Shown: one piece after another, positions 8,813-42,849 of the stretch
Layout of the letters: each line of letters begins with the position of its first letter
Position numbering within the stretch: position 1 is the first letter of the stretch
Assembly: GCA_026386845.1 (NCBI GenBank)
Contig: JAPLMW010000036.1
Span: 1-55,429, forward strand
Direction: 5' to 3'
From: Phycisphaerae bacterium
GTDB taxonomy: Bacteria; Planctomycetota; Phycisphaerae; Sedimentisphaerales; UBA12454
Length of the DNA: 55,429 nt
Program-made: the position numbers and the translations under genes
Notes under the pieces: generated by a model
Told to the model about the DNA's origin: nothing
Database searches by the model: none
Seen by the model: the letters and a program-made list of their open reading frames with translations, nothing else

Positions 8813-8917
8813 ATAAGGAATTATCCGTCAAACAAAACAAAGAATCAATTATAAAAACACTCTGTTAATATCATCGGCTTTTACGCCGATTTTTTTGAAC
8901 AAAGCTCACCGACTTAT

Positions 8918-8952
8918 ACTATACATTAAATACCAAATACTATATACTATTC
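8918..8952. repeat. Degenerate tandem heptamer array
   Basis: Five 7-base units with pattern ACTATAC / ATTAAAT / ACCAAAT / ACTATAT / ACTATTC lie between the divergent ftsW and the membrane-protein gene at 8955. Units differ at a few positions but keep strict 7-base register. It is one of at least nine such arrays in the window. Confidence 0.65.
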
Positions 8953-8954
8953 GA

Positions 8955-9455: not shown

Positions 9456-10190
9456 TTATTTTTCCGGCCTGATATATATCTTTTGCCGGGCATCCTCGAA
9501 GATTACCTGCTCGGTGCCGTCATAAATAATCTTCTTTTTATTTGTGCTGACAGCATTTTCTCCGACGGAAAATGTTATGGTAAAATTATATACATCGGCC
9601 TGTTTTTCCTTGCCGGCAAACTGCCAGCTTAACCTGACAGGCTCCTGACCTTTCGGCCCGCACGTCATATTCATTGTAACAGCGGAAAATTGTTTCTCCG
9701 ACTCATTATTCACAAACAATATATTCTCGCAGCTCCTGTCTGGGGCGGATTTGTCCTCAACGCAAATTATTCCTTTAATATCCGGTCGCCCGGACATCTG
9801 CATGGTCGTTATAAAATCATCGTGCATTTCTAACTTTTTGTGCAGGGAAAATGTCGTTGCGGAATTAACAAACAGCCAAATCCCGATAATTGTCAGCAGA
9901 AGTGCAAGACCTACCGCGGAAGTTATAATTCCTGCGATTGCAAAACCTTTGCCTTTTACCGCTCCGCTCGCCTTGCTGATTTTGTTAAGCGCAAGTATCC
10001 CGAATACAAGACCGATTATCCACGTAATTCCAAACACGCCGAACATTGAAAAACCGCTTATACCCAGAATCATCGAAGTTATCGCCATTCCGCTTGTTCT
10101 CGTCGGCTGGCTGTAAACAAACACTCCGCCGCACTGCTGGCATATCGCGGCATTTTCAAGATTATCCATTCCGCATTTTTGACAATACAT
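9456..10190 (-). CDS. Zinc-ribbon plus DUF4190 membrane protein
   Basis: A zinc ribbon opens the protein ('MYCQKCGMDN', then 'ICQQCG'), giving four Cys in CxxC pairs. A DUF4190-type block follows around residues 38-105, two Gly/Ala-rich membrane helices around 'GKGFAIAGIITSAVGLALL'. The last 130 residues look like an extracytoplasmic beta-rich domain with no family I recognise. DUF4190 proteins are small membrane proteins of unknown role. The start is the ATG at 10190, with GTGAGG six bases upstream; a GTG at 10202 is also in frame. Confidence 0.75.
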   Translation of the reverse strand: MYCQKCGMDNLENAAICQQCGGVFVYSQPTRTSGMAITSMILGISGFSMFGVFGITWIIGLVFGILALNKISKASGAVKGKGFAIAGIITSAVGLALLLTIIGIWLFVNSATTFSLHKKLEMHDDFITTMQMSGRPDIKGIICVEDKSAPDRSCENILFVNNESEKQFSAVTMNMTCGPKGQEPVRLSWQFAGKEKQADVYNFTITFSVGENAVSTNKKKIIYDGTEQVIFEDARQKIYIRPEK

Positions 10191-10259
10191 ATTTCGCCTC
10201 ACTCAAAAATATATTACTTCTATTCTAATAGGCTGATGGAAAATATTCAACCCAAATAA

Positions 10260-10370
10260 ACCCCCACACCAATTTTTTTCATGGTGCCGGTTTCTTTCAA
10301 AATATTTGATGTTTATTCTTTTTTGAATATTCTGGACAGATGTAGGTGCCTGAAAAATTGGTGAAGGGGT
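10260..10370. repeat. Inverted-arm element downstream of mutS
   Basis: Arms 10260-10277 and 10353-10370 pair at 16 of 18 positions (ACCCCCACACCAATTTTT against its near-complement), with a 75-base loop. In the mutS direction it begins a few bases after the mutS stop and could act in transcript termination or protection. The arm sequence is shared with the element near tRNA-Gly at 35039-35211. Confidence 0.75.
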
Positions 10371-10374
10371 AAAA

Positions 10375-13041
10375 CTATTGTTTTTTCAGAAAATCCTTTA
10401 TTTCATTGAGCAAATTGATGGCCTGGATTGGCGTAAGATTATTAACGTCAAGGCCTTTGAGCTTTTCGAGAACATCTTTCTCTTTTTGGTCGAAAAGCTG
10501 CTGTTGCGGCTGTTTTGTCCGCTGCTTTGTGAGCTTATCGCCCGAAGTTTCCTTTTGAAAAGTATTTTCAAGCTCCGCGAGAATCTCTTTGCTGCGCTCA
10601 AGAACGGATTTCGGAATACCGGCAAGTTTTGCAACGTGAATACCGTAGCTTTTGTCCGTCCCGCCGGGAACAATTTTATGCAGAAATACTACCTCATCCA
10701 TCCATTCACGAACGGCCACATTATAGTTTTTCACATTGACTAAAAGCTCCGCAAGAGCCGTAAGCTCATGATAGTGCGTTGCGAAAAGTGTTCTGCATTT
10801 GATTTCGTTTGCGATATGCTCAGTTATCGCCCAGGCCAGAGACAGACCGTCATAAGTGCTTGTGCCTCTGCCGACCTCATCGAGAATCACAAGCGATTTT
10901 TCAGTAGCGTTGTTGATAATATTCGCTGTCTCGGTCATTTCTACCATAAAGGTTGACTGCCCCCGAACAATTTCGTCAGAAGCGCCGACTCGCGTAAATA
11001 TCCTGTCAACTAAGCCTATCGTCGCCTGCTTTGCGGGAATAAAACTACCCGTCTGAGCCATTAAAACAAGAAGAGCGGTTTGCCTGATATAAGTGCTTTT
11101 GCCGCTCATATTGGGGCCTGTAATTATCATCACATCGCCGCTACCTGTGGTGAGCGGAGTCGAACCATTTGCGCCAAGTTCGACATCGTTCGGCACAAAT
11201 TCGCTGCTGAGAATCTCTGCAAGCACAGGATGTTTGCCGTCACGGATTACCAGTTCGCCTCCGCCGGTTATCTTCGGCCTTGTGTAATTCCGCAAATCCG
11301 CAAGATGAGCAAAAGCACAAAGACAATCGCACGTCGCGACAGTTTCCGCTAAGTGCTGAATTCTGCTTATATAAGATGCGCATTGAGCGCGAAGCTGTTC
11401 AAAAAGCCGCTGCTCAAGCTCAAGACTTTTTTCGCCGGCAGTGAGAATCTTTTCCTCATATTTCTTAAGCTCATCGGTTATATAACGCTCGGCATTTTTT
11501 ATCGTCTGTTTGCGAACATAATCAGCCGGAATACGGTCCGCGTAAGAATTGGTAATCTCGATATAATAGCCGAAAACCTGGTTAAAACCGACCTTTAGAT
11601 GTGTTATGCCGGTCCGCTGAATTTCCTTCTGCTGATATTGAGCCAGCCACGCCCTTGCGTCTTTCGAGATGCTGCGCAGCTCATCAAGTTCGGAATTAAA
11701 ACCTGCTTTTATCACACCGCCGTCACGAAGATGATTGGGACATTCCGGCTCAATCGCCGATTCCAAAACAGCGGCAAGTTCCGGCAGACAATCGCATCGC
11801 TGCGTTAGTTTAACAAGAATATCCGCGGACAAACCGCCAAGCAATTGCTTCAGCGGCTCTGCCTTTTTCAAACTTTGACAAAGCGCTAAAAGGTCTCGCG
11901 GCGTTGCTCTCAGGGTGCTTATCCTTGCGACAATCCTTTCAAGGTCGGCAAAATTCTTTAAAATACCTCGTATCTTTTCAAGTGCCGTAAGGCATCCCTC
12001 AGCGGAGTCGGCCTTCTTCTCAACAAATTCTTCAACAGCATCCTGCCTTAGTTCGATTGAGCCGACATCGCACAAAGGCATACACATCCAGTATCGAAAC
12101 ATCCTGCCGCCCATTCCGGTAAGTGTCTGGTCGATACTTTCTACCAGCGAACCTTTGACACTGCCGCCGCGAATCGTTGAAAGAACCTCAAGACTCCGCA
12201 GTGTTGTCTGGTCTATCTGAAGAAACTTTTTCTGCTCGACAAGTTTCAGGCTTGAAATATGTCCTAATGCTGTTTTCTGCGTCTCTTTGAGATATTCAAT
12301 TATCGCACCGGCTGGACTAATCACAGAACTATCGTCTTTTATGCCGAATCCCTCCAGCGTCTTTGTGCCGAATTGCTCAAGCAGCCTCTTATAAGAATCG
12401 TAAGGCTCAAAATACCACGCCGGCCGAACCGTCACCGCTGTTTTGCCCGTCTGTTCAATCTGCGCTGCTAATTTTTTTACTTCAGTGCCGAAAAGTTCGC
12501 CTCGCGTCTCAGGCAAAATGCACTCCGCAGGAGAAATTCTTAAAATCTCATCAACTACCGCTTGTTCAGGAACAACACGGGCAAAAAAATGTCCCGTTGA
12601 AATATCAACCCAGCTTATTGCAGCATTTTTCGAATTGAGACTGATCGCACATAGAAAATTGTCCTGCTTTTCTTCGAGCAGGATATCATCGGTAAGTGTG
12701 CCCGGCGTGATAATCCGAATTACATCTCGTTTGACTACACCTTGGGCAAGTTTTGGATTTTCGATTTGTTCGCAGACAGCGACTTTATAGCCTGCCTTAA
12801 TCATCTTCTTGAGATAGCCGTCAACAGCGTGAAAAGGCACACCCGCAAGAGGCACAGGATTGTCCCCTTTATTTCTGCTTGTCAGCGTAAGCCCGCAGAC
12901 TTGCGAACAGATTTGCGCATCCTTATAAAATGTCTCGTAGAAATCCCCCATCCGGAAAAACAGAATACACTCCGGGTATTTTTTCTTGAAGCTGTCATAC
13001 TGCTTCATCGCCGGCGTCAATTTGTCCTGCTGTAAACTCAT
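10375..13041 (-). CDS. mutS: DNA mismatch repair ATPase MutS
   Basis: MutS recognises mismatches and small loops and recruits MutL. All parts are present: the N-terminal mismatch-binding domain with the 'FFRMGDFYETF' Phe-x-Glu motif near residue 30, the connector, core and clamp domains, Walker A 'GPNMSGKST' near 620, 'FTRVGASDEIVRGQSTFMVEM' and Walker B 'LVILDEVGRGTSTYDG' near 690, then the C-terminal helix-turn-helix dimerisation region. At about 888 residues it has the full MutS1 length. The ATG at 13041 gives 'MSLQQDKLTPAMKQY'; a TTG at 13050 directly after the mnmE stop is the alternative. It follows mnmE with almost no gap. Confidence 0.97.
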   Translation of the reverse strand: MSLQQDKLTPAMKQYDSFKKKYPECILFFRMGDFYETFYKDAQICSQVCGLTLTSRNKGDNPVPLAGVPFHAVDGYLKKMIKAGYKVAVCEQIENPKLAQGVVKRDVIRIITPGTLTDDILLEEKQDNFLCAISLNSKNAAISWVDISTGHFFARVVPEQAVVDEILRISPAECILPETRGELFGTEVKKLAAQIEQTGKTAVTVRPAWYFEPYDSYKRLLEQFGTKTLEGFGIKDDSSVISPAGAIIEYLKETQKTALGHISSLKLVEQKKFLQIDQTTLRSLEVLSTIRGGSVKGSLVESIDQTLTGMGGRMFRYWMCMPLCDVGSIELRQDAVEEFVEKKADSAEGCLTALEKIRGILKNFADLERIVARISTLRATPRDLLALCQSLKKAEPLKQLLGGLSADILVKLTQRCDCLPELAAVLESAIEPECPNHLRDGGVIKAGFNSELDELRSISKDARAWLAQYQQKEIQRTGITHLKVGFNQVFGYYIEITNSYADRIPADYVRKQTIKNAERYITDELKKYEEKILTAGEKSLELEQRLFEQLRAQCASYISRIQHLAETVATCDCLCAFAHLADLRNYTRPKITGGGELVIRDGKHPVLAEILSSEFVPNDVELGANGSTPLTTGSGDVMIITGPNMSGKSTYIRQTALLVLMAQTGSFIPAKQATIGLVDRIFTRVGASDEIVRGQSTFMVEMTETANIINNATEKSLVILDEVGRGTSTYDGLSLAWAITEHIANEIKCRTLFATHYHELTALAELLVNVKNYNVAVREWMDEVVFLHKIVPGGTDKSYGIHVAKLAGIPKSVLERSKEILAELENTFQKETSGDKLTKQRTKQPQQQLFDQKEKDVLEKLKGLDVNNLTPIQAINLLNEIKDFLKKQ

Positions 13042-13050
13042 AAGCTGCAA

Positions 13051-14196
13051 TTATACAACAACGGCGCCTTTTAACAACTCTGTAATCAGCTCCTTAATCT
13101 GCTGTTTTGTCCTGGCAGAAACAATTTCCCCTGTTATCTTTTTCTGCCTGTCTGTAAAACAGACCGTTTTTTTGATATCAAAATCATAAACGCCGAGTCT
13201 CCGCTCTATTTCGCCGACAAGCTCTTTTACTCCGCTGCCGGTTTTTGCGCTGATTTTTAAACCATCGGCAAGTAAATCCTTCGCCAAATCATATTTGTTA
13301 TAAACGGCAAGCACATTTTTTGCCGAAATGCGAAATTCTGTCTGTTTTGTCATATCCAGAACAAGCAAAACCAAATCAGCCGTTTCTATAAGCCCGGCAG
13401 CCTGCTTCTGTGATTCAGCGTCAACCGCATTTTTGCCGGCCGGTGTTTCATCAAGGCCTGCGGTGTCAAAAAATTCCACTGTGATTCTTTTTAAGCGGAC
13501 CTTGGCGGCCAGCCAGTCCCGCGTTGTGCCTGCGATATCCGTTACTATCGCTTTATCTTTGCCGCAAAGGTAATTAAACAATGTGCTTTTGCCGCTGTTG
13601 GGCGCCCCTGCAATCACAACTCTGGCGCCCTCTATAAACAAATCCGCGATTCTGCTGTCATTTAAAATCCGTTCTGCGCCGCTTTTGATATCGTCAGGTT
13701 CCAGCACATTTAGATTCTCAAGCCACCACTCGGCAGTTTGCAAAAGTCCCATTTTGGTCTGATGCCGGATTATCTTTGCACCATAAATTGTCGCTGCCTT
13801 TGCCATGGCGATATCCGCCTCTGCCGCAATCGTGTTACTGCCGTATTTTCTGTGGAGAATATAGGCCAAAACAGCGTCAGGCTCTGTAATTTTCACTCCG
13901 TGCTTTTTCAATAATTCAAGAATGTTTTCTACAATAAGTGGATTGCCGTGACAATTAATACTGAAAGAGTCTGTCTGTTCACAGCCGATTACAACTTCAT
14001 CAATATCTTTATCTTTATCAAAAAGAAAACCGTGAAGTATATTTCCTTCATTAAATTCAACAATTTTCCCCAAAGGCCTGAAAATACTCTTTAAAACATC
14101 TGCTGAATTTTCCCCCGCAATTTGTATGCTCGATATTGCGGCTGCGGATTTCGCCGTCATCAATGAAGCAATACAGCCTTGTCCTGGCGTTTTCAA
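13051..14196 (-). CDS. mnmE: MnmE/TrmE-like tRNA-modification GTPase, short and lacking the C-terminal Cys motif
   Basis: MnmE with MnmG modifies U34 of certain tRNAs, using an N-terminal folate-binding domain, a helical domain, a G domain inserted in it, and a C-terminal CxGK cysteine. The G domain is intact: G1 'GAPNSGKSTLFN' near 194, G2 'DIAGTTRDW', G3 'DTAGLDE', G4 'NKYDL'. The protein is 381 aa against about 450 usually, and it ends 'ITELLKGAVVV' with no Cys motif. The N-terminus is only loosely MnmE-like. Start: TTG at 14196 overlapping the coaX TGA, with GGAG six bases upstream. It could be a divergent MnmE or a relative with a changed role. Confidence 0.75.
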   Translation of the reverse strand: MKTPGQGCIASLMTAKSAAAISSIQIAGENSADVLKSIFRPLGKIVEFNEGNILHGFLFDKDKDIDEVVIGCEQTDSFSINCHGNPLIVENILELLKKHGVKITEPDAVLAYILHRKYGSNTIAAEADIAMAKAATIYGAKIIRHQTKMGLLQTAEWWLENLNVLEPDDIKSGAERILNDSRIADLFIEGARVVIAGAPNSGKSTLFNYLCGKDKAIVTDIAGTTRDWLAAKVRLKRITVEFFDTAGLDETPAGKNAVDAESQKQAAGLIETADLVLLVLDMTKQTEFRISAKNVLAVYNKYDLAKDLLADGLKISAKTGSGVKELVGEIERRLGVYDFDIKKTVCFTDRQKKITGEIVSARTKQQIKELITELLKGAVVV

Positions 14197-14993
14197 TCTT
14201 TCTCCCCGATAAATTTCTCGTATGCAAGGACAATGCCCTTCACGCCTAAGTCTGTAACAAATGAATCCGCAAATTCACAGCCGCTCTTGACGATTTCCAT
14301 ATTTCCGCCCGTTACAACCGTCTGCGGCCATCGGCCAATCTCTTCGGAATAGAGCCTTCCTATCGTTTCAAGAGCCCCTATCGCCGAGTAATACAGCCCG
14401 TTATTGATTGCCTCGATTGTATTTCTGCCTAAGGGCTTTTTGGGGATTTCTACTTTATCTATTTTCGGCAAAGCCGCCGTCTGTCTGTGCAGCGCATCAG
14501 CCGATATATCAAAGCCCGGCAGTATCGTCCCGCCTAAAAAAACGCCTTCGGCACTAACAAGGTCGATTGTTACCGCCGTCCCGAAATCAGCGACAATAAC
14601 CGCATCTTCAACAACGCTGTATGCCGCGAATGCGCACAATACCCTGTCAACGCCGACCTGCCCCGGCTCATCGACATTAAGTTTCATCGGCAGCGGAACA
14701 TCTTTACCAACGCCTATCTCAAGAATTTTTTCATCCAGTTCTTTTTTTGCAATCTCTCTAACCTTTTCCGTCCAGTCTGGCTTTACGCTTCCGACAACAA
14801 TAACGCCGTCGCGCTTTTTGTCCTTCTCCTTACCGGCTTTTACAAAAGGAATCTTCTGCCAGAATGATTTTAAACAGGCGGTAAGCTCTTCCGAATTGCC
14901 GCCGCCGATTTTCTCCATTATCGTCTCGGTATTATCAATAAAAAGCCCCGCCGTTATATTCGTATTGCCTATATCTATTGCTATAATATTCAT
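14193..14993 (-). CDS. coaX: Type III pantothenate kinase CoaX
   Basis: CoaX phosphorylates pantothenate, the first step of coenzyme A synthesis. The ASKHA-fold ATPase motifs are visible: 'AIDIGNTN' at the N-terminus (phosphate 1), 'GVDRVLCAFAAY' near 120, and 'VADFGTAVTIDLV' near 138 followed by 'GGTILPG'. Length is 266 aa, normal for type III. The ATG at 14993 is preferred over a GTG at 15008, because it gives the usual start 'MNIIAIDIGNTN'. This ATG lies at the edge of an inverted-repeat arm whose sequence GAGGTCTAACGGG also supplies the only ribosome-site-like bases. mnmE overlaps its stop. Confidence 0.93.
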   Translation of the reverse strand: MNIIAIDIGNTNITAGLFIDNTETIMEKIGGGNSEELTACLKSFWQKIPFVKAGKEKDKKRDGVIVVGSVKPDWTEKVREIAKKELDEKILEIGVGKDVPLPMKLNVDEPGQVGVDRVLCAFAAYSVVEDAVIVADFGTAVTIDLVSAEGVFLGGTILPGFDISADALHRQTAALPKIDKVEIPKKPLGRNTIEAINNGLYYSAIGALETIGRLYSEEIGRWPQTVVTGGNMEIVKSGCEFADSFVTDLGVKGIVLAYEKFIGEKD

Positions 14994-15096
14994 CCCGTTA
15001 GACCTCACTAAGCCTTTTAATTTGCGTATCTATGTAAAACATACTTGCCTTTTTCACAATTAAAACTCATATGATATTAAAGAGGTCTAACGGGAT
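14992..15096 (-). repeat. Inverted-arm leader element at the coaX start
   Basis: Arms 14992-15006 and 15082-15096 are perfect 15-base complements (ATCCCGTTAGACCTC), with a 75-base loop that itself holds an 8-bp TTTTAATT/AATTAAAA pair and a small TATGT/ACATA hairpin. The arm next to coaX covers its GAGG and the first two bases of the ATG. Pairing would hide the start of translation, suggesting a translational switch. Confidence 0.85.
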
Positions 15097-15127
15097 TCAT
15101 CCTATCCCTTAAAAAACCCATTTTACA

Positions 15128-16345
15128 TTATTTTTTGCCATTTGCAATCAGCAAACGGTTTACCATCATCGCCGCCACGGTATCGCCGGAAGAGTTAATC
15201 ATTGTCGCCGGCGCATCGACGAGAGTGCCTATCATTGAGATAATAGGCAGTGCCTCAGGCCCGAATCCGTAGAGTGATACAATCAAAGTCTCACCGAGAA
15301 AACCGCCGCCCGGTATGCCGCTCATTACAACCCCGCAAAGAATCGCGACTCCGACAGCGCCGGCTAAAGTTTCAATCCCCGAAAAATCCCGGCCATACAG
15401 CGAAAACAGCACCGCGATTTTCATAACAGCAGCTAAGCACGAACCGTCCATATGAATCGTCGCGCCCAGCGGAAGCACTATCTCGCGCACATCTTCCGGC
15501 ACGCCGATACGCCTGGCTGATTCAAGATTGGCCGGCAGTGCCGCAAGACTGCTTCCCGTCCCGAAAGCCGTCAATGCCGCCGGAGGAATGAACGTCCAGA
15601 AATCTTTCACGCCTTTATTGCCCCCGCCGATAAAAGCATAAATGGAAAATCCGAATACGAAATAGAGAATCGCCAAAGGATAATAGAGCGCGACCGCTCG
15701 CACGTATGAACCAATAATTTGCGGCCCGAACGTGCCGACAAGGTATGCGAAATATGCCCCAAGGCCAATCGGCGCATAGAGCATTATCAGCTTTATAAGC
15801 TGCCCCATCACTTCAGACCCGCTGACCAGAAATTCTCGAAATGTCCGCCCCTTATCGCCCGCCGCTTGCGAGGCAAAACCGGTTAGAATGGAAAAAACAA
15901 TCATCGCAAGCATATTTCTGCGGTTCAGCAGACCGGCAAAATCGCTTACAGTAACGGTATTGACAATTTTGTTCGCAAAGCCGTCCCCTTCTGTCGCCGC
16001 AGGCTCGGCAAGCTTTAACGTTAATCCTTTGGCAGGGTCAAAAACTTTCACCGCAAGCAGCATCAGGCACGATGAGATTACACCTGTCAGCAAAAACACA
16101 ACGAGCATCAGCCCCGCTATACGTCCTAAGCGTTTGAGATTGGAGCTTGCCGCTATTGCCGACGATAGAGAAAAGAATACTAATGGCACAACAGCGGTGA
16201 ACAATAGATTTAAAAACACATCTCCCAAAGGCTTTAATACCGCGGCTTTCGAACCGATTATATGCCCCAGCAGTGCGCCCCCTGCCACAGCGCTCATCAG
16301 TATCAATGTAAATCGCCAGCTCTTTAAAAATTTCTTCGCGTCCAT
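15128..16345 (-). CDS. Dicarboxylate/amino acid:cation symporter (DAACS family)
   Basis: A 405-residue sodium or proton-coupled carrier for glutamate, aspartate or C4-dicarboxylates. It has eight or more hydrophobic segments. The re-entrant loop HP1 'FGTGSSLAALP' lies near residue 260, where the family has a Ser-rich SSSTLP. 'LGATIHMDG' lies near 285, HP2 'GIPGGGFLGETLIV' near 335 and 'DAPATMINSSGDTVAAM' near 380, which carries the Asp and Asn of the substrate and cation sites. The substrate cannot be fixed from sequence. It lies upstream of coaX on the same strand, but an inverted-arm element separates them. Confidence 0.9.
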   Translation of the reverse strand: MDAKKFLKSWRFTLILMSAVAGGALLGHIIGSKAAVLKPLGDVFLNLLFTAVVPLVFFSLSSAIAASSNLKRLGRIAGLMLVVFLLTGVISSCLMLLAVKVFDPAKGLTLKLAEPAATEGDGFANKIVNTVTVSDFAGLLNRRNMLAMIVFSILTGFASQAAGDKGRTFREFLVSGSEVMGQLIKLIMLYAPIGLGAYFAYLVGTFGPQIIGSYVRAVALYYPLAILYFVFGFSIYAFIGGGNKGVKDFWTFIPPAALTAFGTGSSLAALPANLESARRIGVPEDVREIVLPLGATIHMDGSCLAAVMKIAVLFSLYGRDFSGIETLAGAVGVAILCGVVMSGIPGGGFLGETLIVSLYGFGPEALPIISMIGTLVDAPATMINSSGDTVAAMMVNRLLIANGKK

Positions 16346-16490
16346 GCTGTTTCTATTTTATCGCCCGACCGCCTAAATCGCAACCAAATCTCCCCTTGCC
16401 TTAATCCTACGTAGCCTTGGCGAAGTAGGATGCCAGGAGGTTCGTTTCCAAAATCCAAAATTGACACTTCCGCCGCAGGCGGCTCCTCAA

Positions 16491-16504
<14 letters not shown>
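16346..16504. other. Spacer with a hairpin, a GC palindrome and a heptamer array
   Basis: This spacer holds an ATCCTAC/GTAGGAT stem around 16405-16432, then a GC-rich CCGCCGCAGGCGG palindrome near 16470, then CCTCAAC leading into tandem CTTTTCA units at 16491-16518. A similar palindrome-CTCAAC-heptamer arrangement stands at 28002-28063 before smc. The obgE stop codon falls inside the array. Confidence 0.6.
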
Positions 16505-17527
<1,023 letters not shown>

Positions 17528-17531
17528 TTAG

Positions 17532-17580
17532 CAGTGAACAGAAAACCGTAAACTGTAAACCGTTAACTGTAAACTTTGAC
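17532..17580. repeat. Tandem heptamer array upstream of obgE
   Basis: Seven 7-base units in register: CAGTGAA, CAGAAAA, CCGTAAA, CTGTAAA, CCGTTAA, CTGTAAA, CTTTGAC. The array fills most of the space between the rpmA terminator and the obgE start, so any obgE promoter must lie in or next to it. Confidence 0.7.
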
Positions 17581-17590
17581 ATAGAATATA

Positions 17591-17619
17591 CAAAAAAAGG
17601 ATGGCATAAAGCCATCCTT
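17591..17619 (-). terminator. Rho-independent terminator after rpmA
   Basis: Read on the minus strand, a 9-bp stem AAGGATGGC / GCCATCCTT with a TTTAT loop is followed by a run of seven T. It lies 26 bases beyond the rpmA stop and has the canonical hairpin plus U-tract form. Confidence 0.88.
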
Positions 17620-17644
17620 ATTTTCATCTTAAAAAAATAAGAAA

Positions 17645-17881
17645 TTAGACATCAATGTGGATTTTCTTGCCCTTAAACCTTACTACGCCAAGCTTCAAAG
17701 CAAATAAGGTGTCGTCTCTGCCAATGCCGACGTTAAAGCCGGGATGCCAGACAGTGCCCTTCTGACGGACAAGTATAGCGCCTGCCTTTGCCACCTGGCC
17801 GGCATATAACTTAATGCCCAGATTCTTAGCATTGCTGTCGCGTCCGTTGCTGCTCGAGCCTTGTCCCTTCTTATGTGCCAT
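17645..17881 (-). CDS. rpmA: 50S ribosomal protein bL27
   Basis: A 78-residue bL27 starting '[16 protein letters not shown]', whose N-terminal tail reaches the peptidyl-transferase centre, with the typical body '[29 protein letters not shown]'. The ATG at 17881 has an AAGGTG site seven bases upstream; an in-frame GTG at 17890 is less likely. rpmA usually follows rplU (bL21), but here no rplU lies upstream: 196 bases of spacer and then the OLD-like gene occupy that place. Confidence 0.96.
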
Positions 17882-35038: not shown

Positions 35039-35211
35039 ACCCCCACACCAATTTTTCAAATTATCGACTTATTTTAGACTATTTAATGATAATTCTTTGG
35101 GATGATTTTTAAACAAAATAACGTCGATGTGAAATTGGTGTACTATTTAATGATAATTCTTTGGGATGATTTTTAAACAAAATAACGTCGATGTGAAATT
35201 GGTGTGGGGGT
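35039..35211. repeat. Inverted-arm element carrying an exact 64-bp tandem duplication
   Basis: Arms 35039-35054 and 35196-35211 pair perfectly over 16 bases (ACCCCCACACCAATTT). Inside, 35078-35141 is repeated exactly at 35142-35205. The loop is 141 bases; without the duplicate it would be 77, matching the other elements. Inner complementarity (CGAC plus TTATTTT near 35065 with its complement near 35120-35132) extends the stem. It lies between proA's leader and tRNA-Gly. Confidence 0.85.
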
Positions 35212-35328: not shown

Positions 35329-35482
35329 TTAAAAACAAACCCTTGTGTTAATATAGGCAATTTGAATAAACTTTACCGATTGTAAACCGCAAGGCTATAT
35401 GGCAATTCTGGGATTCGACGGGGAGCGGCGGTAAATCATGGGAAAAATAAGGAGTTATGAGATATTGCGAGGGATTTCCTAT

Positions 35483-35537
35483 ATGGCACACATTGCAGGT
35501 TTTGCCAATTCTGCGCATCTATATGGCACACAATTAC
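35483..35537 (+). repeat. Left end repeats of the capsid-carrying element
   Basis: ATGGCACACATTGC at 35483-35496, TCTGCGCATC at 35510-35519 and ATGGCACACAATTAC at 35523-35537. A weaker outer copy (ATATGGCAATTCTG) lies at 35397-35410. The order TCTGCGCATC, 3-base gap, ATGGCACACA is mirrored at the right end. Confidence 0.75.
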
Positions 35538-35592
35538 AAACCATTTAAAAGTCGTTTAAAAGCACGCCGTTGGGCGTATAAGTCAAAATCGA

Positions 35593-35626
35593 GCGCTCCA
35601 CCTTATGACGATTATAAGGTGTGCGC
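35593..35626. repeat. Long hairpin inside the left end of the element
   Basis: The 8-bp stem CACCTTAT/ATAAGGTG (35599-35606 with 35614-35621) is extended by GCGC on both sides. It is preceded by an ACGCC/GGCGT hairpin near 35563 and followed by more GTGCGC words. Such clusters can mark replication or recombination sites, but no such role is shown. Confidence 0.5.
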
Positions 35627-35909
35627 TGTGCGCCAAACGTGCGCTAATATCGGACAAAATAGGTCATTCATCTGTTAAGATGGATTGAGTTTTTGGGAAG
35701 ATAGAAAAGATGTTAGATGCCCAGTGAATAAAGGCCAAAATTTTTATAAATTTTTTTTAGGCGTTAAAATAGGTGGTTTTAATAAGCTAAATCTATTAGC
35801 AAAGTCTTAATAAGTGATACAAAGTATAGATAATCAATCAAAGTTTAAGGTCTTTTGCTATTTAGGGTGTTTTAGTGTTTTTTGGTGTATTTTAGTGTTT
35901 TTTTGTATT

Positions 35910-36413
35910 TTAGATTTTTTCGCCAAACGGTTTTAATGCCTCATTTATTGCGTCTGTAACGGCCTTATATTCTGCGTGTAAATCTTCAATTTTCTTTTGT
36001 TCTTTCTCTAAATTTAAAAATGCCTGGGTTTGTTCTACGCCCACAGGCAAATTGTGCATTACGGCCTCAGTGGTTTGCTGACGTATTTTAGTACGTCGCT
36101 CCTCTATCTCTTGTATCTTATTTGTTATGGTTGATAAATAACTGTAAACAAAAGGTTTGAGGGCTTTTACGGCCTCTGTTGTGCCGGGCGAAAGTTTACC
36201 TGTTATAAGCCAATGAAGGTCTATATCGAGGATTTCGGCTATCTTTTCAAGTGCTGGAACGTTTGGAAAACTCTTACTGCTTTCATATCGAGATATTTGG
36301 CTTGGATTGCTTAGGTTGAGTTTTTTTGCAAAATCGGCACTGCTCAAACCACGTTTTTTGCGGATTATCCTTAATCTTCCCGAAAAATTGTTATTTTTTT
36401 GAGAATTGTTCAT
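35910..36413 (-). CDS. Xre-family phage-type repressor
   Basis: A 167-residue regulator. The N-terminal helix-turn-helix covers residues 12-68: 'LRIIRKKRGLSSADFAKKLNLSNPSQISRYESSKSFPNVPALEKIAEIL', a typical HTH_3 domain. The C-terminal half is a helical, coiled-coil-prone region, probably for oligomerisation; there is no S24 peptidase motif, so induction by RecA-style self-cleavage is not expected. AAGG stands five bases before the ATG. It is divergent from the element's structural genes, and the shared 89-base intergenic region carries a near-consensus promoter and an operator-like palindrome. It likely represses the element. Confidence 0.85.
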   Translation of the reverse strand: MNNSQKNNNFSGRLRIIRKKRGLSSADFAKKLNLSNPSQISRYESSKSFPNVPALEKIAEILDIDLHWLITGKLSPGTTEAVKALKPFVYSYLSTITNKIQEIEERRTKIRQQTTEAVMHNLPVGVEQTQAFLNLEKEQKKIEDLHAEYKAVTDAINEALKPFGEKI

Positions 36414-36420
36414 TTTCGCC

Positions 36421-36472
36421 TTGACATCTATGAATTAACTCCGCATAATATGCCGATATATGCTTAATCGGC
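36421..36472 (+). promoter_or_regulatory. Near-consensus promoter and operator-like palindrome of the element
   Basis: TTGACA (36421-36426), a 17-base spacer and CATAAT (36444-36449) form a sigma-70-type promoter reading toward the structural genes. Right behind it, GCCGAT (36452-36457) and ATCGGC (36467-36472) form a 21-base dyad, placed where a bound Xre repressor would block transcription. Confidence 0.7.
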
Positions 36473-36502
36473 AGAAAACATTTAAAACATTTAGGACTTA
36501 AT

Positions 36503-36682
36503 ATGGCACGAACAAAGATAGGAACTCCAGTTAAAGCCTTTCGCGTTACGGACGCTGCTGCCGTAAAACTTATCAATAAAAGAGCCGCTGTCGAGTCGCG
36601 TTCGGCGGCCAATGCCGCCGCTATAACAATTATTGAATCCTTAAGTCGGCAAGGTAAACCGCCGAAAAAGTCTAATCACTAA
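36503..36682 (+). CDS. Small ribbon-helix-helix-like protein, 59 aa
   Basis: A short gene with AGGA six to seven bases before its ATG, the first gene behind the element promoter. The product reads 'MARTKIGTPVKAFRVTDAAA' and continues through a likely helix ('VKLINKRAAVESRSAANAAA') into 'ITIIESL' and a basic tail. A short strand followed by two helices fits an Arc/MetJ-type ribbon-helix-helix DNA-binding protein, but the match is by pattern only. It would suit a second regulator of the element. Confidence 0.6.
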   Translation: MARTKIGTPVKAFRVTDAAAVKLINKRAAVESRSAANAAAITIIESLSRQGKPPKKSNH

Positions 36683-36754
36683 GTGTTGCTCTTACAAGAG
36701 AAAACAGAATGAATTTTTCTACTGAGCCATATAAAAAAAATTAAGGAGAAAAAA

Positions 36755-37150
36755 ATGAAAACCGAATCAGAAAAATTAGACCATTATTTTGAGCAAGTCA
36801 AAGACAATCTCGAAGTCTATGCTGCGCCATGTCAGCGATTAATAATACTGCATGTAAGCAAAGGCTCAAAACCCAGGAAAGATATATCCAGGGATATAAC
36901 TTATGCCGTCGGAAAACTTAAAAAGTTGTTTGACGGCTGCAAGGTTTCTTTTCGCAACAAGGTTTTGTTTATGTATTTAATAAATGTCCTGCCGAAGCTG
37001 GAAGAAAAATACAACAAAGAGGTGGCGATACAGGATGCAACCGATGAATTATTAAATCTAACCATAGGCAAAACTGTACAGCAGATAAAGGCTATGATTG
37101 AAATGCTTAAGGCAAACGGTTTTGCCAAAAAATATAAAAAGTGTGGTTAA
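36755..37150 (+). CDS. Hypothetical element protein, 131 aa
   Basis: Not recognised. It has a strong ribosome site (AAGGAG seven bases before ATG). The protein is soluble and mostly helical, with many Lys, including 'DISRDITYAVGKLKKLFDGC' and 'KTVQQIKAMIEMLKANGFAKKYKK'. It lies between the small regulator and the prohead protease, where phages often carry terminase or portal genes, but its size and sequence fit neither. The stop is 20 bases before the protease start. Confidence 0.75.
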   Translation: MKTESEKLDHYFEQVKDNLEVYAAPCQRLIILHVSKGSKPRKDISRDITYAVGKLKKLFDGCKVSFRNKVLFMYLINVLPKLEEKYNKEVAIQDATDELLNLTIGKTVQQIKAMIEMLKANGFAKKYKKCG

Positions 37151-37169
37151 TTTACAGGAGTCGAGCGAA

Positions 37170-37949
37170 ATGGAATTTGCTGAACTTGTTCAAAGTAAAA
37201 AGGATTTTAAAAGTAAAAAAACTCTCAACGTCAAGCAATTTGAGTCGGCGTTATCCGTTAAAGCGGTTGACATCGAAAAACGAACAATCAGAGTTTTGGC
37301 AAGTAACGCCGATTTAGACCGAGACGGCGAGAGGATTTTACCAGAGGCTTTTAAAAACAGTCTGGACATTTTCAAGAGCAATCCCGTTATACTTGCGGCT
37401 CATTCGCATCGGCTTGATAGTGGAAATTCACCTGTTGTCGGACGTGCCATAAATATATGGATAAATGAAGGTCTTTGGGTTGTTATTGAATTTGCGAAAA
37501 CAAATTTAGCTGAGGAGTATTGGCAGCTTTATCGTGATGGATTCCAGAAGGCCGTTTCTATCGGTTTTGCTCCGCTTGCCTGGAGCGATACCAACGAAAA
37601 CGGCAAATCAGTAAGGATATTCTCAGCAGTCGAGCTTTTTGAAATCAGCCTGGTTGCTGTTGGGAGTAACCGAGCAGCTCTGTCAAAATCTAAGCAGGGT
37701 AAAGTTGACTGGCTGACAGACAAAAAAATTCTCGATGAAATAAAAAAGCAAAATCCCGATTTTGAAAAAGACAGCAATGAATTTGCCGAGTGTCTCCTGG
37801 GCGTTAATGAAGACGGCGAAACGGCTGAAATCGACGAGCCTGGTTGCGGCGAACAATCAGGCGACAGTCGATTTGAATTAGCCAAAACAGTACATCCACA
37901 AGGCAATTACGAAGATAACGAATTTGTTCGATTAGTAACCAAACGATGA
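37170..37949 (+). CDS. HK97-family prohead protease
   Basis: A 259-residue serine protease of the HK97 prohead type, which trims capsid scaffold during head maturation. 'ILAAHSHRLDSGNSPVVGRA' near residue 72 carries the catalytic His, 'KAVSIGFAPLAW' near 128 the catalytic Ser, and 'FEISLVAVGSNRAAL' near 155 is the usual conserved strand. The C-terminal 80 residues are acidic and probably cleaved or disordered. Start: the ATG at 37170 with AGGAG nine bases upstream, not the earlier in-frame ATG at 37098, which lies inside the previous gene. The capsid gene follows, as in HK97-like phages. Confidence 0.85.
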   Translation: MEFAELVQSKKDFKSKKTLNVKQFESALSVKAVDIEKRTIRVLASNADLDRDGERILPEAFKNSLDIFKSNPVILAAHSHRLDSGNSPVVGRAINIWINEGLWVVIEFAKTNLAEEYWQLYRDGFQKAVSIGFAPLAWSDTNENGKSVRIFSAVELFEISLVAVGSNRAALSKSKQGKVDWLTDKKILDEIKKQNPDFEKDSNEFAECLLGVNEDGETAEIDEPGCGEQSGDSRFELAKTVHPQGNYEDNEFVRLVTKR

Positions 37950-37955
37950 TAAAAA

Positions 37956-38048
37956 ATGCTGAAGATGTCGGTAATGTTCGGTATGAAGCTGGCGCCTCAC
38001 CGCTGCGATTACTGTGTTGCCGATATTGTGAGTCCAGGAAATGCTTAG
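37956..38048 (+). CDS. Possible small Cys-containing protein, 30 aa
   Basis: An open frame between protease and capsid gene encodes 'MLKMSVMFGMKLAPHRCDYC' and ten more residues. The CxxC with a nearby His could bind a metal. There is no clear ribosome site, and the length makes chance likely. I know no matching family. Confidence 0.25.
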   Translation: MLKMSVMFGMKLAPHRCDYCVADIVSPGNA

Positions 38049-38084
38049 TTATTAATCGGCCATGATTTTTTCTCCTGTTTTCGG

Positions 38085-38109
38085 GGGCGGGTGTGTGCCC
38101 GCCCTTTTT
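38085..38109 (+). terminator. Rho-independent terminator between protease and capsid genes
   Basis: The stem GGGCGGG/CCCGCCC (38085-38091 with 38098-38104), a 6-base loop and then TTTTT form a textbook terminator. Placed before the capsid gene, it should uncouple capsid from protease transcription, or act as a partial stop that sets their ratio. Confidence 0.85.
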
Positions 38110-38145
38110 AAAATGTAATTAAACTTGATTTAATGAGGTAACAAA

Positions 38146-39330
38146 ATGCCACCAGTAACATTTGAAGATAAAGTCGCCAAAGGCTTCGAGGCCGCAGGCG
38201 AAAGAATGAATAGTATTGATATGAACGTCAAGGAAATAGAGGCCTGTTACAAAACACTGACAGCGCAGTTTGCGCGTTACGGCAAAGCTCTTATTTCCGG
38301 CACAATGGACGGTAAAGGTTATCCAGGCTTTTGGCCGAATGAAGGTATGGCTAAAGAATTTGGCATGCACGTATTGAGGGTTATCGGCGCCAAAATAAAA
38401 ACTGGGGGTATGAGCACAATCGACCAGGGCAGCAATTTAGTACCAACAGAGCTTTCCAACTGGATTATTCAGAAACTTGGCACTTATGGCAAGTTCAGAA
38501 AATACGCTACAAAGGTTCAGATGGGCAGCAGTTCTCAGATAGTTCCAAAAGTAACCGCCGACCTGACTATTTTCTGCCCTGGTGAAAAAAACACAATCGT
38601 AGCAAGTGATGTAAATGTCGGTGCAGTTACACTAACCCCCCGAAAATTTGCCTGTCTTACTGCTATCAGCCGAGAACTCGAAGAGGACACCGCAATCGGT
38701 ATCGGCGAAATAGTCGGTATTTCCGTAGCGCGTTCGATGGCAAAAAAAGAAGATGCAATCGGCTTTACGGGCGATGGTACTGAGGAATTTTTCGGAATGA
38801 CGGGTATTGTTGCCTCTCTATTGGGAGTTGCTGATGCTGTAGAAGATATTCCAGGCCTGATTATTGGCAGCGGCAATGCTTATTCAGAATTGGTACTCAA
38901 AGACTTTCGCAACGTAGTCGGTATATTGCCGGACGATGCGGACGATAATGCCCGATGGTATATGAATAAGAAATTTTACTACAGCGTTGTTTATCCCCTG
39001 GCCGAAGCGGCAGGTGTCGCAAGCATCTTTGAGATACTTTCAAACATTAAAGGCAGATTTTTGTTAGGCTATCCGGTTGAGTTTATAAGCGCCATGCCTG
39101 CAAAAGAAGCCGATAGTCAAATCTGTGCGGTTCTCGGCGATTTGGAGCTCGGAGCAATGTTAGGTGAGCGTCGTCAACTTGAAATTGCCAGAAGCGAGGA
39201 CGTCTTTTTTGTCAATGATATGGTTGCTCTTCGCGGCTCTGAAAGAATAGACGTATCAGCGCACGGCGTCGGCGATAAAGATGAGCCTGGGGCAATCGTA
39301 GGCCTGATTACGGCAGCCGCTCAAGGTTAA
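38146..39330 (+). CDS. HK97-fold major capsid protein
   Basis: A 394-residue phage capsid protein of the HK97 fold. A short N-terminal helical region (residues 1-100) would be the scaffold-like delta domain. The body starts near 'STIDQGSNLVPTELSNWIIQKLG' and includes 'QIVPKVTADLTIFCPGE', 'TLTPRKFACLTAISRELEED' and 'GEIVGISVARSMAKKEDAIGFTGDGTEEFFGMTGI', all typical of this fold, ending with the domain strand 'ARSEDVFFVNDMVALRGSERIDVSA'. It assembles into the icosahedral shell. The prohead protease is just upstream. No portal gene is visible, which is unusual for a capsid meant to package DNA. Confidence 0.88.
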   Translation: MPPVTFEDKVAKGFEAAGERMNSIDMNVKEIEACYKTLTAQFARYGKALISGTMDGKGYPGFWPNEGMAKEFGMHVLRVIGAKIKTGGMSTIDQGSNLVPTELSNWIIQKLGTYGKFRKYATKVQMGSSSQIVPKVTADLTIFCPGEKNTIVASDVNVGAVTLTPRKFACLTAISRELEEDTAIGIGEIVGISVARSMAKKEDAIGFTGDGTEEFFGMTGIVASLLGVADAVEDIPGLIIGSGNAYSELVLKDFRNVVGILPDDADDNARWYMNKKFYYSVVYPLAEAAGVASIFEILSNIKGRFLLGYPVEFISAMPAKEADSQICAVLGDLELGAMLGERRQLEIARSEDVFFVNDMVALRGSERIDVSAHGVGDKDEPGAIVGLITAAAQG

Positions 39331-39360
39331 TAATAAAAACAGTAAACTGTTCATATTACA

Positions 39361-39410
39361 CCTGCCGTTTGGATTTATCGTAGAACTTCAGGTCCAGACG
39401 GCAGGCTTTT
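39361..39410 (+). terminator. Rho-independent terminator after the capsid gene
   Basis: A 13-bp stem with one G-U pair (39361-39373 with 39393-39405, CCTGCCGTTTGGA) is followed by CTTTT. It ends the capsid transcript 30 bases after the stop. Confidence 0.75.
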
Positions 39411-39434
39411 ATAAAATGATTTTGGAAATATAAA

Positions 39435-41057
39435 ATGTCGGACAAAGACATTAACATCCACGTTCGAGCGAAGGATACTGCCGAAACCAAACGGCAAATC
39501 GACGAGACCACATCATCTATGTATGATTTATGGAAGGCAACGGGGGAAGGCGCCAAACAAGCCGGCGACGGCACAGAAAAGGCAACTGAAAAATTAGGGT
39601 TTATGGGGCGTACCCTTGAAAGCTTAAAACGCCAGGCCTTAGGTTTTATTTCCGGATTTGTCGGATTAGCGGCAGTTGTAACGCTTGTCAATGAACTCGC
39701 TAATGGCCTGAAACGTGTACAGGAATTGCAAAAGGCAACTTATGAAAAAGGGCTTGATTATTCTGAATTAGGTCAGAGGCTTGCGTTCCAGGCGGGAGCT
39801 CCTGGCAAACAACAATATTTTGCCGAACAAATAGCAGGGATTCAACGAGCAGGTTTAATAGCCGACAAACAGACGGCATATCAACTGCTAAGCTCTGCCG
39901 ATACTACTTACAAATCCCTGGGGGGCATTAAAAATCCGAAAATTTTATCATTAGCAAATGAACTTGCTCCGACCATCGGAGCGGCGGGGATGTCGCAAGG
40001 GGAAATCAAAAGCCTTTTCGAGCTTGCAGAAAAGGTAAAAATTGCCCCGACAGCCGAGGCATATAAAAAACTAATGGCAGAAGCCAAAACCGCTGCCGAT
40101 ATTTCAAAAACAACAATGGGAGAATTTATAACCGGCTTTGAAGGGGCAACTGCCGGATATTTAGCCAAAGGCGGCACACTAGAAACGGCAATGAGTACTT
40201 ATTCGGCTCTCAGGTCTGTTACGGGCAGCGAAGAGGCTGCCGCATCTATTTTCAAACTGGTTGTTAAATTATCAGAAGGCGGGAATAAAAAATTTACAGG
40301 AAAAATCGAACGCAAATTAGGCGTTCAATGGGAAAAGCTTAATGAGGACCAGCAGCTGGACTCGTTTTTGCGATATCTCAATACTTTGCCGCAATCAGAG
40401 GTAACGCAGATTTTAGCAGAACAAGGGGTTCAAGGGGCTGGCAAAATAGGGTTGCTGGCAACGCCTGAGGCACAGCAAGTATTTAAAACAACTCAACAGA
40501 AAATTACAGTTTCAAACACTGAAGAATTAAATCAGCAGACAAAAGCATATCGCGATTCGATGCTGGGGAAAAAGATAGCAATCAAAACCAAATACGCAGA
40601 AAAGGCTGTTCAAGAAGCGCCGGAATTTGCAACATGGCAGGAAAAAAAAGATGAAATACAAAACCAGTTTGAAGAAGCCCAAAAACACGGCAAGGATTCA
40701 TTGTTAATTAACGACAAAATTGAAGCTTCTGTAATGATGCTTAAACAAGAGGCAGAGGATATAAAGCAGTATATGAAAACCGTGCCTAAAGGCAGCAAGC
40801 AATGGAAAGAGGCTCAAGAATTACTATCAGACGTTCAATCCGATATCGGTACAACTTCCGGATTTATAGCACAAGGATTGGCTGAAATTCCTTCTAATCC
40901 GCCGTTTGTAGAAAATGTTACTCAGAGATATTATAATAGACTCGAAGGTATTAAAGCAGAGCCGAATCAGGTTGTTATAAATAATAATTACGGCGATACG
41001 ATTAATCCGGCAGTCGGCGCAATAGATGTAAATAGGCATGACCCGAATGCGAGGTGA
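39435..41057 (+). CDS. Tape-measure-like protein, 540 aa
   Basis: The N-terminus 'DINIHVRAKDTAETKRQIDE' followed by alternating Gly/Ala-rich helices matches the opening of phage tape-measure proteins, which set tail length and help DNA entry. A hydrophobic segment lies at about 70-92 ('ALGFISGFVGLAAVVTLV'), as in many tape-measure proteins. The middle is helical; the C-terminus ends in a polar tail. At 540 residues it is short for a tape measure, and no other tail gene is present, so it may have another structural role. No clear ribosome site precedes the ATG at 39435. Confidence 0.6.
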   Translation: MSDKDINIHVRAKDTAETKRQIDETTSSMYDLWKATGEGAKQAGDGTEKATEKLGFMGRTLESLKRQALGFISGFVGLAAVVTLVNELANGLKRVQELQKATYEKGLDYSELGQRLAFQAGAPGKQQYFAEQIAGIQRAGLIADKQTAYQLLSSADTTYKSLGGIKNPKILSLANELAPTIGAAGMSQGEIKSLFELAEKVKIAPTAEAYKKLMAEAKTAADISKTTMGEFITGFEGATAGYLAKGGTLETAMSTYSALRSVTGSEEAAASIFKLVVKLSEGGNKKFTGKIERKLGVQWEKLNEDQQLDSFLRYLNTLPQSEVTQILAEQGVQGAGKIGLLATPEAQQVFKTTQQKITVSNTEELNQQTKAYRDSMLGKKIAIKTKYAEKAVQEAPEFATWQEKKDEIQNQFEEAQKHGKDSLLINDKIEASVMMLKQEAEDIKQYMKTVPKGSKQWKEAQELLSDVQSDIGTTSGFIAQGLAEIPSNPPFVENVTQRYYNRLEGIKAEPNQVVINNNYGDTINPAVGAIDVNRHDPNAR

Positions 41058-41104
41058 AAAATAATAAATTATTCTCAGTCGGTGGACTTTGAATTAGGTA
41101 TGGA

Positions 41105-41126
41105 CAGGCTCACCTGTTTGAGCCTG
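41105..41126 (+). terminator. Hairpin after the tape-measure-like gene
   Basis: An 8-bp stem CAGGCTCA/TGAGCCTG with a 6-base loop, followed by AT-rich DNA and a second CAGATT/AATCTG hairpin. There is no real T-tract, so termination is only possible. Confidence 0.45.
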
Positions 41127-41188
41127 ATAATAATCAGATTTTAATCTGTTAATAATAAAGCCGTAAAAGATGTTTAAGACAGTAAAAA

Positions 41189-41722
41189 ATGCCTGAACCC
41201 AAAAAAACAAAATGTTGCACCAGGTGCGGAACAAGAAAACCTTTGAAGGCGTTTAGCAAAAATCGTCGGCAAAAAGACGGCCTGGCAGGTATTTGTAAAA
41301 AATGTCAAAAAAAATATGCAGCCGGAACACTTTTTACAAATCTCCCAAAATCAAGGGAAAACAATAGCCCCGTAAATCAAAAGGATTTGCTGGAAAGAAA
41401 CACTGTTGGAATAAATGACTATAAACAGATAAACAGCGTTCTTCGCGAAATGGCCGAATCGCAAATCGCAATCGACCGCGAAAATGCAGCCCTTGAAATA
41501 AAACTCAACCGTATAAAATCTGAATCAGCCGTATATATTGAGCCGGTAAAGTCTCATCAAATTACCTTACGGCTGATGCTCGAAACGTTTTTAAAGAAGA
41601 TTTTTTCAGATATTGAAAAGGCAAGCAGGTTATTTGAGTTCGGTATGATTTTTTGGAATAACGGCACGGTAAGCATAAACTTAAACACTGAATTGGCTGA
41701 GAATCGGATGGACAAGCCTTGA
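41189..41722 (+). CDS. Zinc-ribbon protein with Gam-like C-terminal half
   Basis: Residues 7-45 form a four-Cys zinc ribbon ('CCTRCGTRKPLKAFSKNRRQ', then 'GICKKCQ'), of the kind found in phage and HNH-associated proteins. Residues 85-170 resemble the Mu Gam fold: a long helix ('MAESQIAIDRENAALEIKLN'), a second helix, then a strand pair 'FEFGMIFWNNGTVSI' like the closing strands of Gam. Gam binds DNA ends and blocks host exonucleases. The resemblance is by pattern and needs a structure prediction to confirm. It is the first of three overlapping genes. Confidence 0.5.
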   Translation: MPEPKKTKCCTRCGTRKPLKAFSKNRRQKDGLAGICKKCQKKYAAGTLFTNLPKSRENNSPVNQKDLLERNTVGINDYKQINSVLREMAESQIAIDRENAALEIKLNRIKSESAVYIEPVKSHQITLRLMLETFLKKIFSDIEKASRLFEFGMIFWNNGTVSINLNTELAENRMDKP

Positions 41723-42204
41723 AAAATCAATCTCTATTCCCGGCATTGTTTGACTTTTTAAAGGCCGTTGTGGAATTCTTATTCACCCTTTTAAAAACAG
41801 TGTCAATCTTATTATTTATATGGTTGAGAAATTTTCTGATGATTCGTCTCGGCCTTTTGTCGTTTTTAATGCGATTCTCAAAAATTAACAGAGTGATGAA
41901 AAGATGTCGAACGAAAATCCATAAAACACTGAAAGCCGTTGAAGAATTAGATAATGCCCTGGTTGCTCATATTCGAGAGGCTTTTGAAAAAACGAAAACA
42001 GGGCAAAGAACCGTTAAAACGGATCCTAATCGCAGGCTTTATGCGGTATTGATTCCGACTAAAGAAGAAAATATTCAGCGGATAAAGAACGTTTTTGACT
42101 CTATGAATTATGAGGAAAAATTATTGAAACTTAATGAGCTTAATTATCTATTAAAAGACAATGCCCTAAAAACCCTCAAGCAATCTGTGAGTTTTTTAAA
42201 ATGA
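41719..42204 (+). CDS. Hypothetical element protein with N-terminal membrane segments, 161 aa
   Basis: Not recognised. Residues 5-52 are strongly hydrophobic ('FLKAVVEFLFTLLKTVSILLFIWL'), with one or two membrane helices, followed by basic and helical cytoplasmic parts. The start is a TTG that overlaps the upstream TGA (TTGA), so translation is coupled. The next gene overlaps its stop as ATGA. It could be a holin-like or membrane-anchoring element protein; nothing proves either. Confidence 0.65.
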   Translation: MKNQSLFPALFDFLKAVVEFLFTLLKTVSILLFIWLRNFLMIRLGLLSFLMRFSKINRVMKRCRTKIHKTLKAVEELDNALVAHIREAFEKTKTGQRTVKTDPNRRLYAVLIPTKEENIQRIKNVFDSMNYEEKLLKLNELNYLLKDNALKTLKQSVSFLK

Positions 42205-42623
42205 AAAATACAAACGAAAAGCCGTTAAAATATTCTTTGACCATAGATACCCCTTCTGGTAGATGTCAAATTGCAACGGAAAGCTGGCAGCTTTTAATTG
42301 AGTTGCTTGACCCCTTCGCTTCTACCGATACTCATCAAAATATGCATAACCTGGCTAAACGTGCCCAAATTGCTTACCACAAGAGCTACAAACGTGCCAA
42401 TTATGTAAGTCCGATAGTTCATAAGGATGGTTTGGAAATTCAGGTAATTATTTGTTATTTGCGGGGATGGAACGTATATAATACGGTTGACTGGCTTTTT
42501 CATAAAAAGAAACACAAAGCCTCTAAATCAGCAATCGGGCGATATTGGACGAGATTGCGAAAAATTGGTATTCTTCCTGTTCATAATTCAGGCAGAAACG
42601 ACAAAGGCAAAGATAAAGTATAA
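42201..42623 (+). CDS. Hypothetical element protein with possible HTH, 140 aa
   Basis: Not recognised. A beta-strand-like N-terminus ('LKYSLTIDTPSGRCQIATES') is followed by helices, and the C-terminal part 'KASKSAIGRYWTRLRKIGIL' could be a helix-turn-helix. It is the last gene of the element, overlapping the upstream stop by ATGA. About 120 bases separate its stop from the right end repeats. Confidence 0.65.
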   Translation: MKNTNEKPLKYSLTIDTPSGRCQIATESWQLLIELLDPFASTDTHQNMHNLAKRAQIAYHKSYKRANYVSPIVHKDGLEIQVIICYLRGWNVYNTVDWLFHKKKHKASKSAIGRYWTRLRKIGILPVHNSGRNDKGKDKV

Positions 42624-42745
42624 ATATATCCGGTTTTTATTGGTTAAATAAAAGGATTTTAAAGCCTTTTTAAAGTAGTTATATATTGGATTCATTATAT
42701 CCGCTTAAGGTGCTAAATAGCCCCCAGCGGAGATTTTATGCGCGG

Positions 42746-42779
42746 GCAATGTGTGCCATTTTGATGCGCAGAGTGCCAT
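42746..42779 (-). repeat. Right end repeats of the capsid-carrying element
   Basis: Read on the minus strand from outside inward: ATGGCAC (42773-42779), TCTGCGCATC (42763-42772), a 3-base gap, ATGGCACACATTGC (42746-42759). The last two words are exact inverted copies of the left-end words at 35510-35519 and 35483-35496. Confidence 0.75.
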
Positions 42780-42849
42780 TTAGGTCGGCGGTCTACAACA
42801 GTCCTATAAGAAAATTTTTACATTTTTTTGAAAAATTGGTTTTTTGTTT

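Follow-up and report, generated by a model that had tools for sequence, protein, structure and literature searches.

Gene content of the element

The stretch of DNA analyzed here (the window; 55,429 bp) is part of a 2.4-Mb planctomycete MAG (G000:C83). Between tRNA-Gly and mraZ, the window carries an element with nine genes in all, laid out as a divergent Xre-type repressor gene and a rightward operon (36503-42623) in the order orf59, p131, S78 protease, HK97-type capsid, tape-measure-like protein, zinc-Gam, tm161 and p140 (Table 1). The Xre repressor, HK97 protease and capsid protein named in the initial annotation of this DNA were confirmed by profile matches (HTH_3, PF04586 and PF05065, respectively). 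A near-consensus divergent promoter had also been described; the predicted site exists, with 11/12 matches, but is oriented only towards the operon.

Table 1. Features of the window element (positions refer to the window)
Feature	Position	Strand	Evidence
Whole element, 7417 bp, 5'-TGTA...TACA-3'	35381..42797	+	Comparison with other islands; empty sites in G198, G128, G174
Left terminus TGTAAACCGCAAGGCTATATGGCA, including outermost site	35381..35404	+	Comparison with related islands
Internal end site ATGGCACACATTGC	35483..35496	+	
Internal end site TCTGCGCATCTATATGGCACACA	35510..35532	+	
Xre-type repressor, 167 aa	35910..36413	-	HTH_3 6.4e-12; equivalent position in related islands
Predicted promoter-like site, TTGACA-17-CATAAT	36421..36449	+	11/12 matches; prediction only
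orf59, small conserved protein opposite xre	36503..36682	+	In related islands; 85% identical in L002
p131	36755..37150	+	55% identical in L002
Prohead serine protease S78, 259 aa	37170..37949	+	PF04586 1.8e-10, phrog_80 5.1e-25
HK97-type major capsid protein, 394 aa	38146..39330	+	PF05065 1.5e-35, phrog_10 1.3e-33
Tape-measure-like protein, 540 aa	39435..41057	+	Family match to Mu-like phage proteins
Zinc-Gam protein, N-terminal Cys motif (zinc-ribbon-like) and Mu Gam-like part	41189..41722	+	
tm161, hydrophobic N-terminus, island-specific	41719..42204	+	
p140, island-specific, HTH-like motif common to Mu gp27	42201..42623	+	
Internal right end site, TCTGCGCATCAAAATGGCACACATTGC on - strand	42746..42772	-	
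Right terminus TGTAGACCGCCGACCTAAATGGCA (- strand reading, from 42797)	42774..42797	-	Comparison with related islands

The products also include the tape-measure-like and Gam-like proteins named in the initial annotation. The tape-measure-like protein of the window has no direct profile match, and its family matches proteins in tail position of Mu-like phages (43-48%). The Gam-like match of the window protein is weak (PF07352, 6.8e-05, under the curated cut-off); the Gam profile is matched in 4 of 5 island members (best 5e-08). No match was obtained in profile searches for p131 or for orf59, which by eye is ribbon-helix-helix-like. In other islands the place of p131 is occupied by similar-sized proteins without assigned function.

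MuA, MuB, gp25-27, terminase, portal and a tail module are missing from the element. As the initial annotation had stated for the packaging motor, portal and recombinase, none of the nine products showed a profile match to terminase, portal, transposase, integrase or recombinase, and a search of the unassigned ORFs for terminase or portal homology found none. The 540-aa tape-measure-like ORF is the only one without a profile match that is large enough for a portal or terminase; in true phages its relatives stand in tail position, beside separate portal and terminase genes. The motif shared by p140 and gp27 scored an hhalign probability of 81% over 22 columns. p140 was considered as a small terminase and rejected: the match covers just these 22 columns, the AlphaFold model is weak (pLDDT 62) and gave no usable fold match. 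Moreover, p140 is not simply gp27, since a true gp27 and a relative of p140 occur together in a capsid-less element described below (L118).

Termini and insertion site

Two words, ATGGCACACATTGC and TCTGCGCATC, had been reported to stand inverted at both ends of a 7.3-kb element. The inverted repeats are real. ATGGCACACATTGC has exactly two copies in the window, at 35483-35496 (+) and 42746-42759 (-), and TCTGCGCATC forms an inverted pair at 35510-35519 (+) and 42763-42772 (-). The arms 35510-35532 and 42750-42772 are complementary at 91% over 23 nt, and the best local match between the left and right end regions was equalled by 0 of 2000 first-order shuffles. No further copy of the 23-nt end motif was found in the 2.4-Mb genome with up to 3 mismatches allowed. 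As termini, however, the two words were rejected; they are internal, binding-site-like repeats, and the real termini lie further out, which extends the element by ~100 bp at its left end and by 18 bp at its right end. An ORF at 35457-35678 was likewise rejected as a gene, as it overlaps the end sites and has no profile match.

In related islands the ends carry repeated ATGGC-cored sites, inverted between the two ends and with fixed spacing. Each TGT terminus (mostly TGTAAA-like at the left end and TGTAG-like at the right) is found 18 nt beyond the outermost site. The window element has TG...CA termini and repeated inverted motifs resembling transposase sites. The end architecture is conserved in other copies, whereas the exact words are not. 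Three islands (L034, L035 and L038) have two left termini each, ~94-133 bp apart, and L036 has no clear left terminus. Note that the terminus coordinates for L034 and L038 are inexact by several bases and that those for L036 do not represent termini.

Checking for empty sites, we found proA, tRNA-Gly and mraZ contiguous and the island absent in three members of the host's family (G198, G128 and G174). In the best empty site (L132, in G198), the alignment to the left flank ends at 35380 and that to the right flank resumes at 42800, with about 11 bp extra at the join relative to the window. The flanks of the window copy differ (CCGAT and ACAGT) and show no target duplication. The extra ~11 bp suggest that a small deletion beside the element probably took this duplication away. 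Perfect 5-bp target duplications are present in L042 (AATAT), L155 (CCTGG) and L118 (ACTGA), the last with TGT ends, and 4 of 5 positions match in L034, L035, L037 and L038; for the islands with doubled left ends, the better copy was used in this comparison. The 5-bp duplications resemble those of Mu, which has a 5-bp target preference and packages flanking host DNA (PMC5977238).

Related islands

Capsid searches recovered some twelve related islands, from genomes of a single planctomycete order and from IMG/VR; one relative from the capsid scan is a Sedimentisphaerales MAG. The gene order of the window element recurs at L034 (G280), L035 (G158), L036 (G218), L037 (G318), L038 (G075), L042/L003 (G235), L044 (G378) and L110 (G408), and in the IMG/VR contigs L002 and L121-L123/L155. 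The islands measure 7.2-8.7 kb. Their insertion loci are unrelated and their neighboring genes differ. In most islands a conserved protein of ~150 aa is encoded next to the capsid gene; the window copy is without it.

Larger versions of the island (L039, L043, L111 and L155) contain MuA-like genes and mostly also MuB-like genes. The Pfam matches in L039 are DDE_2 (3.8e-15), Mu-transpos_C (3.9e-11) and an AAA domain. L155 contains two elements in tandem; each encodes protease, capsid and MuA, and terminase and portal are missing from both. The tandem pair (121-17692) lies inside one 5-bp duplication, as if it had moved as a single unit. In L037, L042 and L110 we observed short proteins whose similarity to MuA is confined to its N-terminal DNA-binding part, the catalytic domain being absent; these may compete with or guide the MuA of a helper. 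L118 (G099:C100, 476-9170), 8.7 kb in length, has no capsid gene but encodes Xre, MuA and MuB together with a relative of p140 and the small-terminase-like gp27; it possibly represents a second kind of satellite of Mu-like phages.

The ends, the target duplications, the empty site and the MuA-carrying relatives place the window element in a Mu-type transposable lineage. Its mobile, non-autonomous nature is well supported by these sequence features.

Mu-like phages of the same host order

True Mu-like phages of the same host order have virion genes and end type in common with the islands. Distant capsid homologs occur in Mu-like phages that encode gp25-27, terminase and a portal-position protein of 745-805 aa. 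One genome, G218, contains both a transposase-less island (C52) and a phage (C46) with MuA, MuB, gp25, gp26, gp27, terminase and portal. At their right ends the two begin with TGTAGTTTATCACCCAAAGTGGCGGAAATTATCTGTAAATGGCGGAGA and are identical for 48 bp from the terminus before they diverge, a match that concerns one genome and one end only. The pattern AAATTATCTNTAAATGGCGGA (up to 3 mismatches) occurs in G218 at 3 places, the phage end and two island ends, and its reversed-control version gave 0 matches in that genome. Thus, the G218 island shares an end with an autonomous MuA-encoding element, and the G218 pair provides a concrete candidate helper. For the G075 island end, a search of that genome found no further copy. 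The right end of a full phage in G099:C98 shows the same architecture (TTGTAGTTTCGCGCGCAAAATGAGC) with a different core.

Terminase was detected in G218, G099, G318 and G450, and was not found in the window's own genome or in the other island genomes searched. MuA was also not found in the window's own genome, so that no helper is seen there at present. The genomes of this analysis are mostly MAGs or fragments.

A comparison with nine phage loci gave matches for the protease, the capsid, the 150-aa protein and the tape-measure protein, and none for orf59, p131 and its counterparts, tm161 or p140.

A probable satellite of transposable phages

The element combines Mu-type ends and shell genes with an absence of machinery for jumping, packaging and tail formation, and therefore probably spreads by means of the functions of a full Mu-like phage. 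We consider it likely that it is a capsid-encoding satellite of Mu-like transposable phages. The initial annotation had offered a helper-dependent satellite, a domesticated capsid and a decayed transposable phage as three options; our reading joins the first with the transposable-phage origin of the third and disfavors domestication and simple decay, both of which are less likely.

As a satellite, the element would be held silent by Xre, its ends serving as arrays of predicted MuA-type binding sites. When a Mu-like helper becomes active in the same cell, helper MuA and MuB would recognize these ends and transpose the element in trans. The element's own protease, capsid and tape-measure-like protein would then be expressed, the first two forming heads. 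Filling of these heads would depend on the terminase and portal of the helper, which would also contribute the tail parts for a finished particle. The tape-measure homolog may take part in tail assembly and the Gam-like protein in protecting DNA ends, and the motif common to gp27 hints that p140 could steer packaging. The island-specific proteins orf59, p131, zinc-Gam, tm161 and p140 may regulate, protect DNA ends or steer packaging. Several points count against a satellite: neither MuA nor terminase was found in the window's own genome, the window copy has no target duplication, the shared end concerns one genome and one end, the G075 island end is single in its genome, and a satellite that makes heads yet brings no portal is unusual.

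The element genes evolve under purifying selection. Relative to L002, dN/dS was 0.27 for orf59, 0.29 for p131, 0.33 for the protease, 0.41 for the tape measure and 0.20 for the capsid, the last determined in two pieces around an in-frame stop in L002, as the undivided value (0.62) is distorted by that stop. The stop is a TAG at ~2467 in the capsid gene of L002, the closest relative, and may be genuine or stem from misassembly. In a maximum-likelihood capsid tree, which leaves several deep forks open, island capsids stand apart from phage capsids, except that one (L155_2) adjoins the phage side.

These results bear on whether the islands are decayed or internally deleted Mu-like prophages that lost terminase, portal, tail and MuA and whose remnants are functionless now. 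Their ends and virion genes are plainly of phage origin, and the missing target duplication of the window copy, the stop in the L002 capsid gene and the unclear left terminus of L036 would fit such an origin. However, the same genes have been retained and lost in islands of several host families, the islands are alike in size and have island-specific genes in common, dN/dS is well under 1, and the capsid tree does not place the islands inside the groups formed by phages from the respective hosts. The conserved gene set, the purifying selection and the separate capsid clade thus argue against simple decay, which we regard as unlikely. Alternatively, the element may move with Mu-like phages while its capsid and tape-measure proteins serve chiefly to disrupt assembly of the helper, to the benefit of host defense. 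Homology of these two proteins to phage counterparts and the missing portal and terminase agree with such interference, but a full protease-capsid pair, accompanied in most copies by the ~150-aa capsid neighbor, exceeds the needs of a decoy and makes it improbable. A shell retained by the host, for instance as an encapsulin-like compartment or for gene transfer, would explain purifying selection on capsid and protease without terminase or portal, but is very improbable because the islands occupy unrelated loci and are missing at the same site in relatives, rather than lying at a fixed host-conserved locus with a cargo gene, and because of their patchy distribution (of 161 genomes in the host order, 18 have capsid homologs, some inside full phages), transposon ends, target duplications and transposase-carrying versions.

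Comparison with known systems

A phage satellite is defined by packaging in particles made wholly or partly by a helper, and the families reviewed are P4-like, PICI, cfPICI, PLE, PICMI, VEIME and Tycheposon (PMC11389934). The capsid-encoding satellite proposed here resembles cf-PICIs in that both are chromosomal islands that encode a phage-type repressor as well as a capsid and head protease of their own, and in a need, read here from the genes, for a helper tail. However, the gene set of cf-PICIs includes portal, connectors and both terminase subunits (PMC10690885). The window element has none of these and is therefore not a cf-PICI, though it may work partly like one; it also differs in its Mu-type ends, with no profile match to an integrase and transposon ends instead of a site-specific attachment site. 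P4-like satellites and classic PICIs are likewise helper-dependent islands with a repressor, a dependence that our reading extends to the window element, but they remodel or reuse helper capsids and integrate site-specifically. Like mini-Mu constructs and MITEs, the element is transposase-less DNA within transposon ends that presumably moves in trans; in contrast to these, it is natural and carries a conserved virion-gene operon with a repressor. The Planctomycetota Mu-like phages (such as G099:C98 and G218:C46) share its end type, protease, capsid and sometimes tape-measure homologs, and some islands also bear MuA/MuB, but the window element differs in the functions it lacks and in its island-specific genes.

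No earlier report of a satellite of transposable phages was found in the open-licence literature. On balance, we favor the view that the islands form a class of satellites not described before, which depend on transposable (Mu-like) phages of Planctomycetota, replicate by transposition and divide head building and packaging between satellite and helper in a way not known from other satellites. The class would have at least three forms: with capsid and without transposase (the window element), with capsid and MuA/MuB, and capsid-less with MuA/MuB and a gp27-type protein (L118). If so, a satellite with a head of its own but borrowed terminase and portal would mean that satellites and helpers can share heads and packaging motors, and mini-Mu would have a counterpart in nature. 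Similar elements can be sought elsewhere by their end signature and gene set.

Further repeats were observed at the window locus. A perfect 64-bp tandem duplication (35078-35205) lies just before tRNA-Gly, outside the element, and short GTGTTTTAGT-like tandem repeats (35857-35914) are found directly 3' of the xre stop codon.
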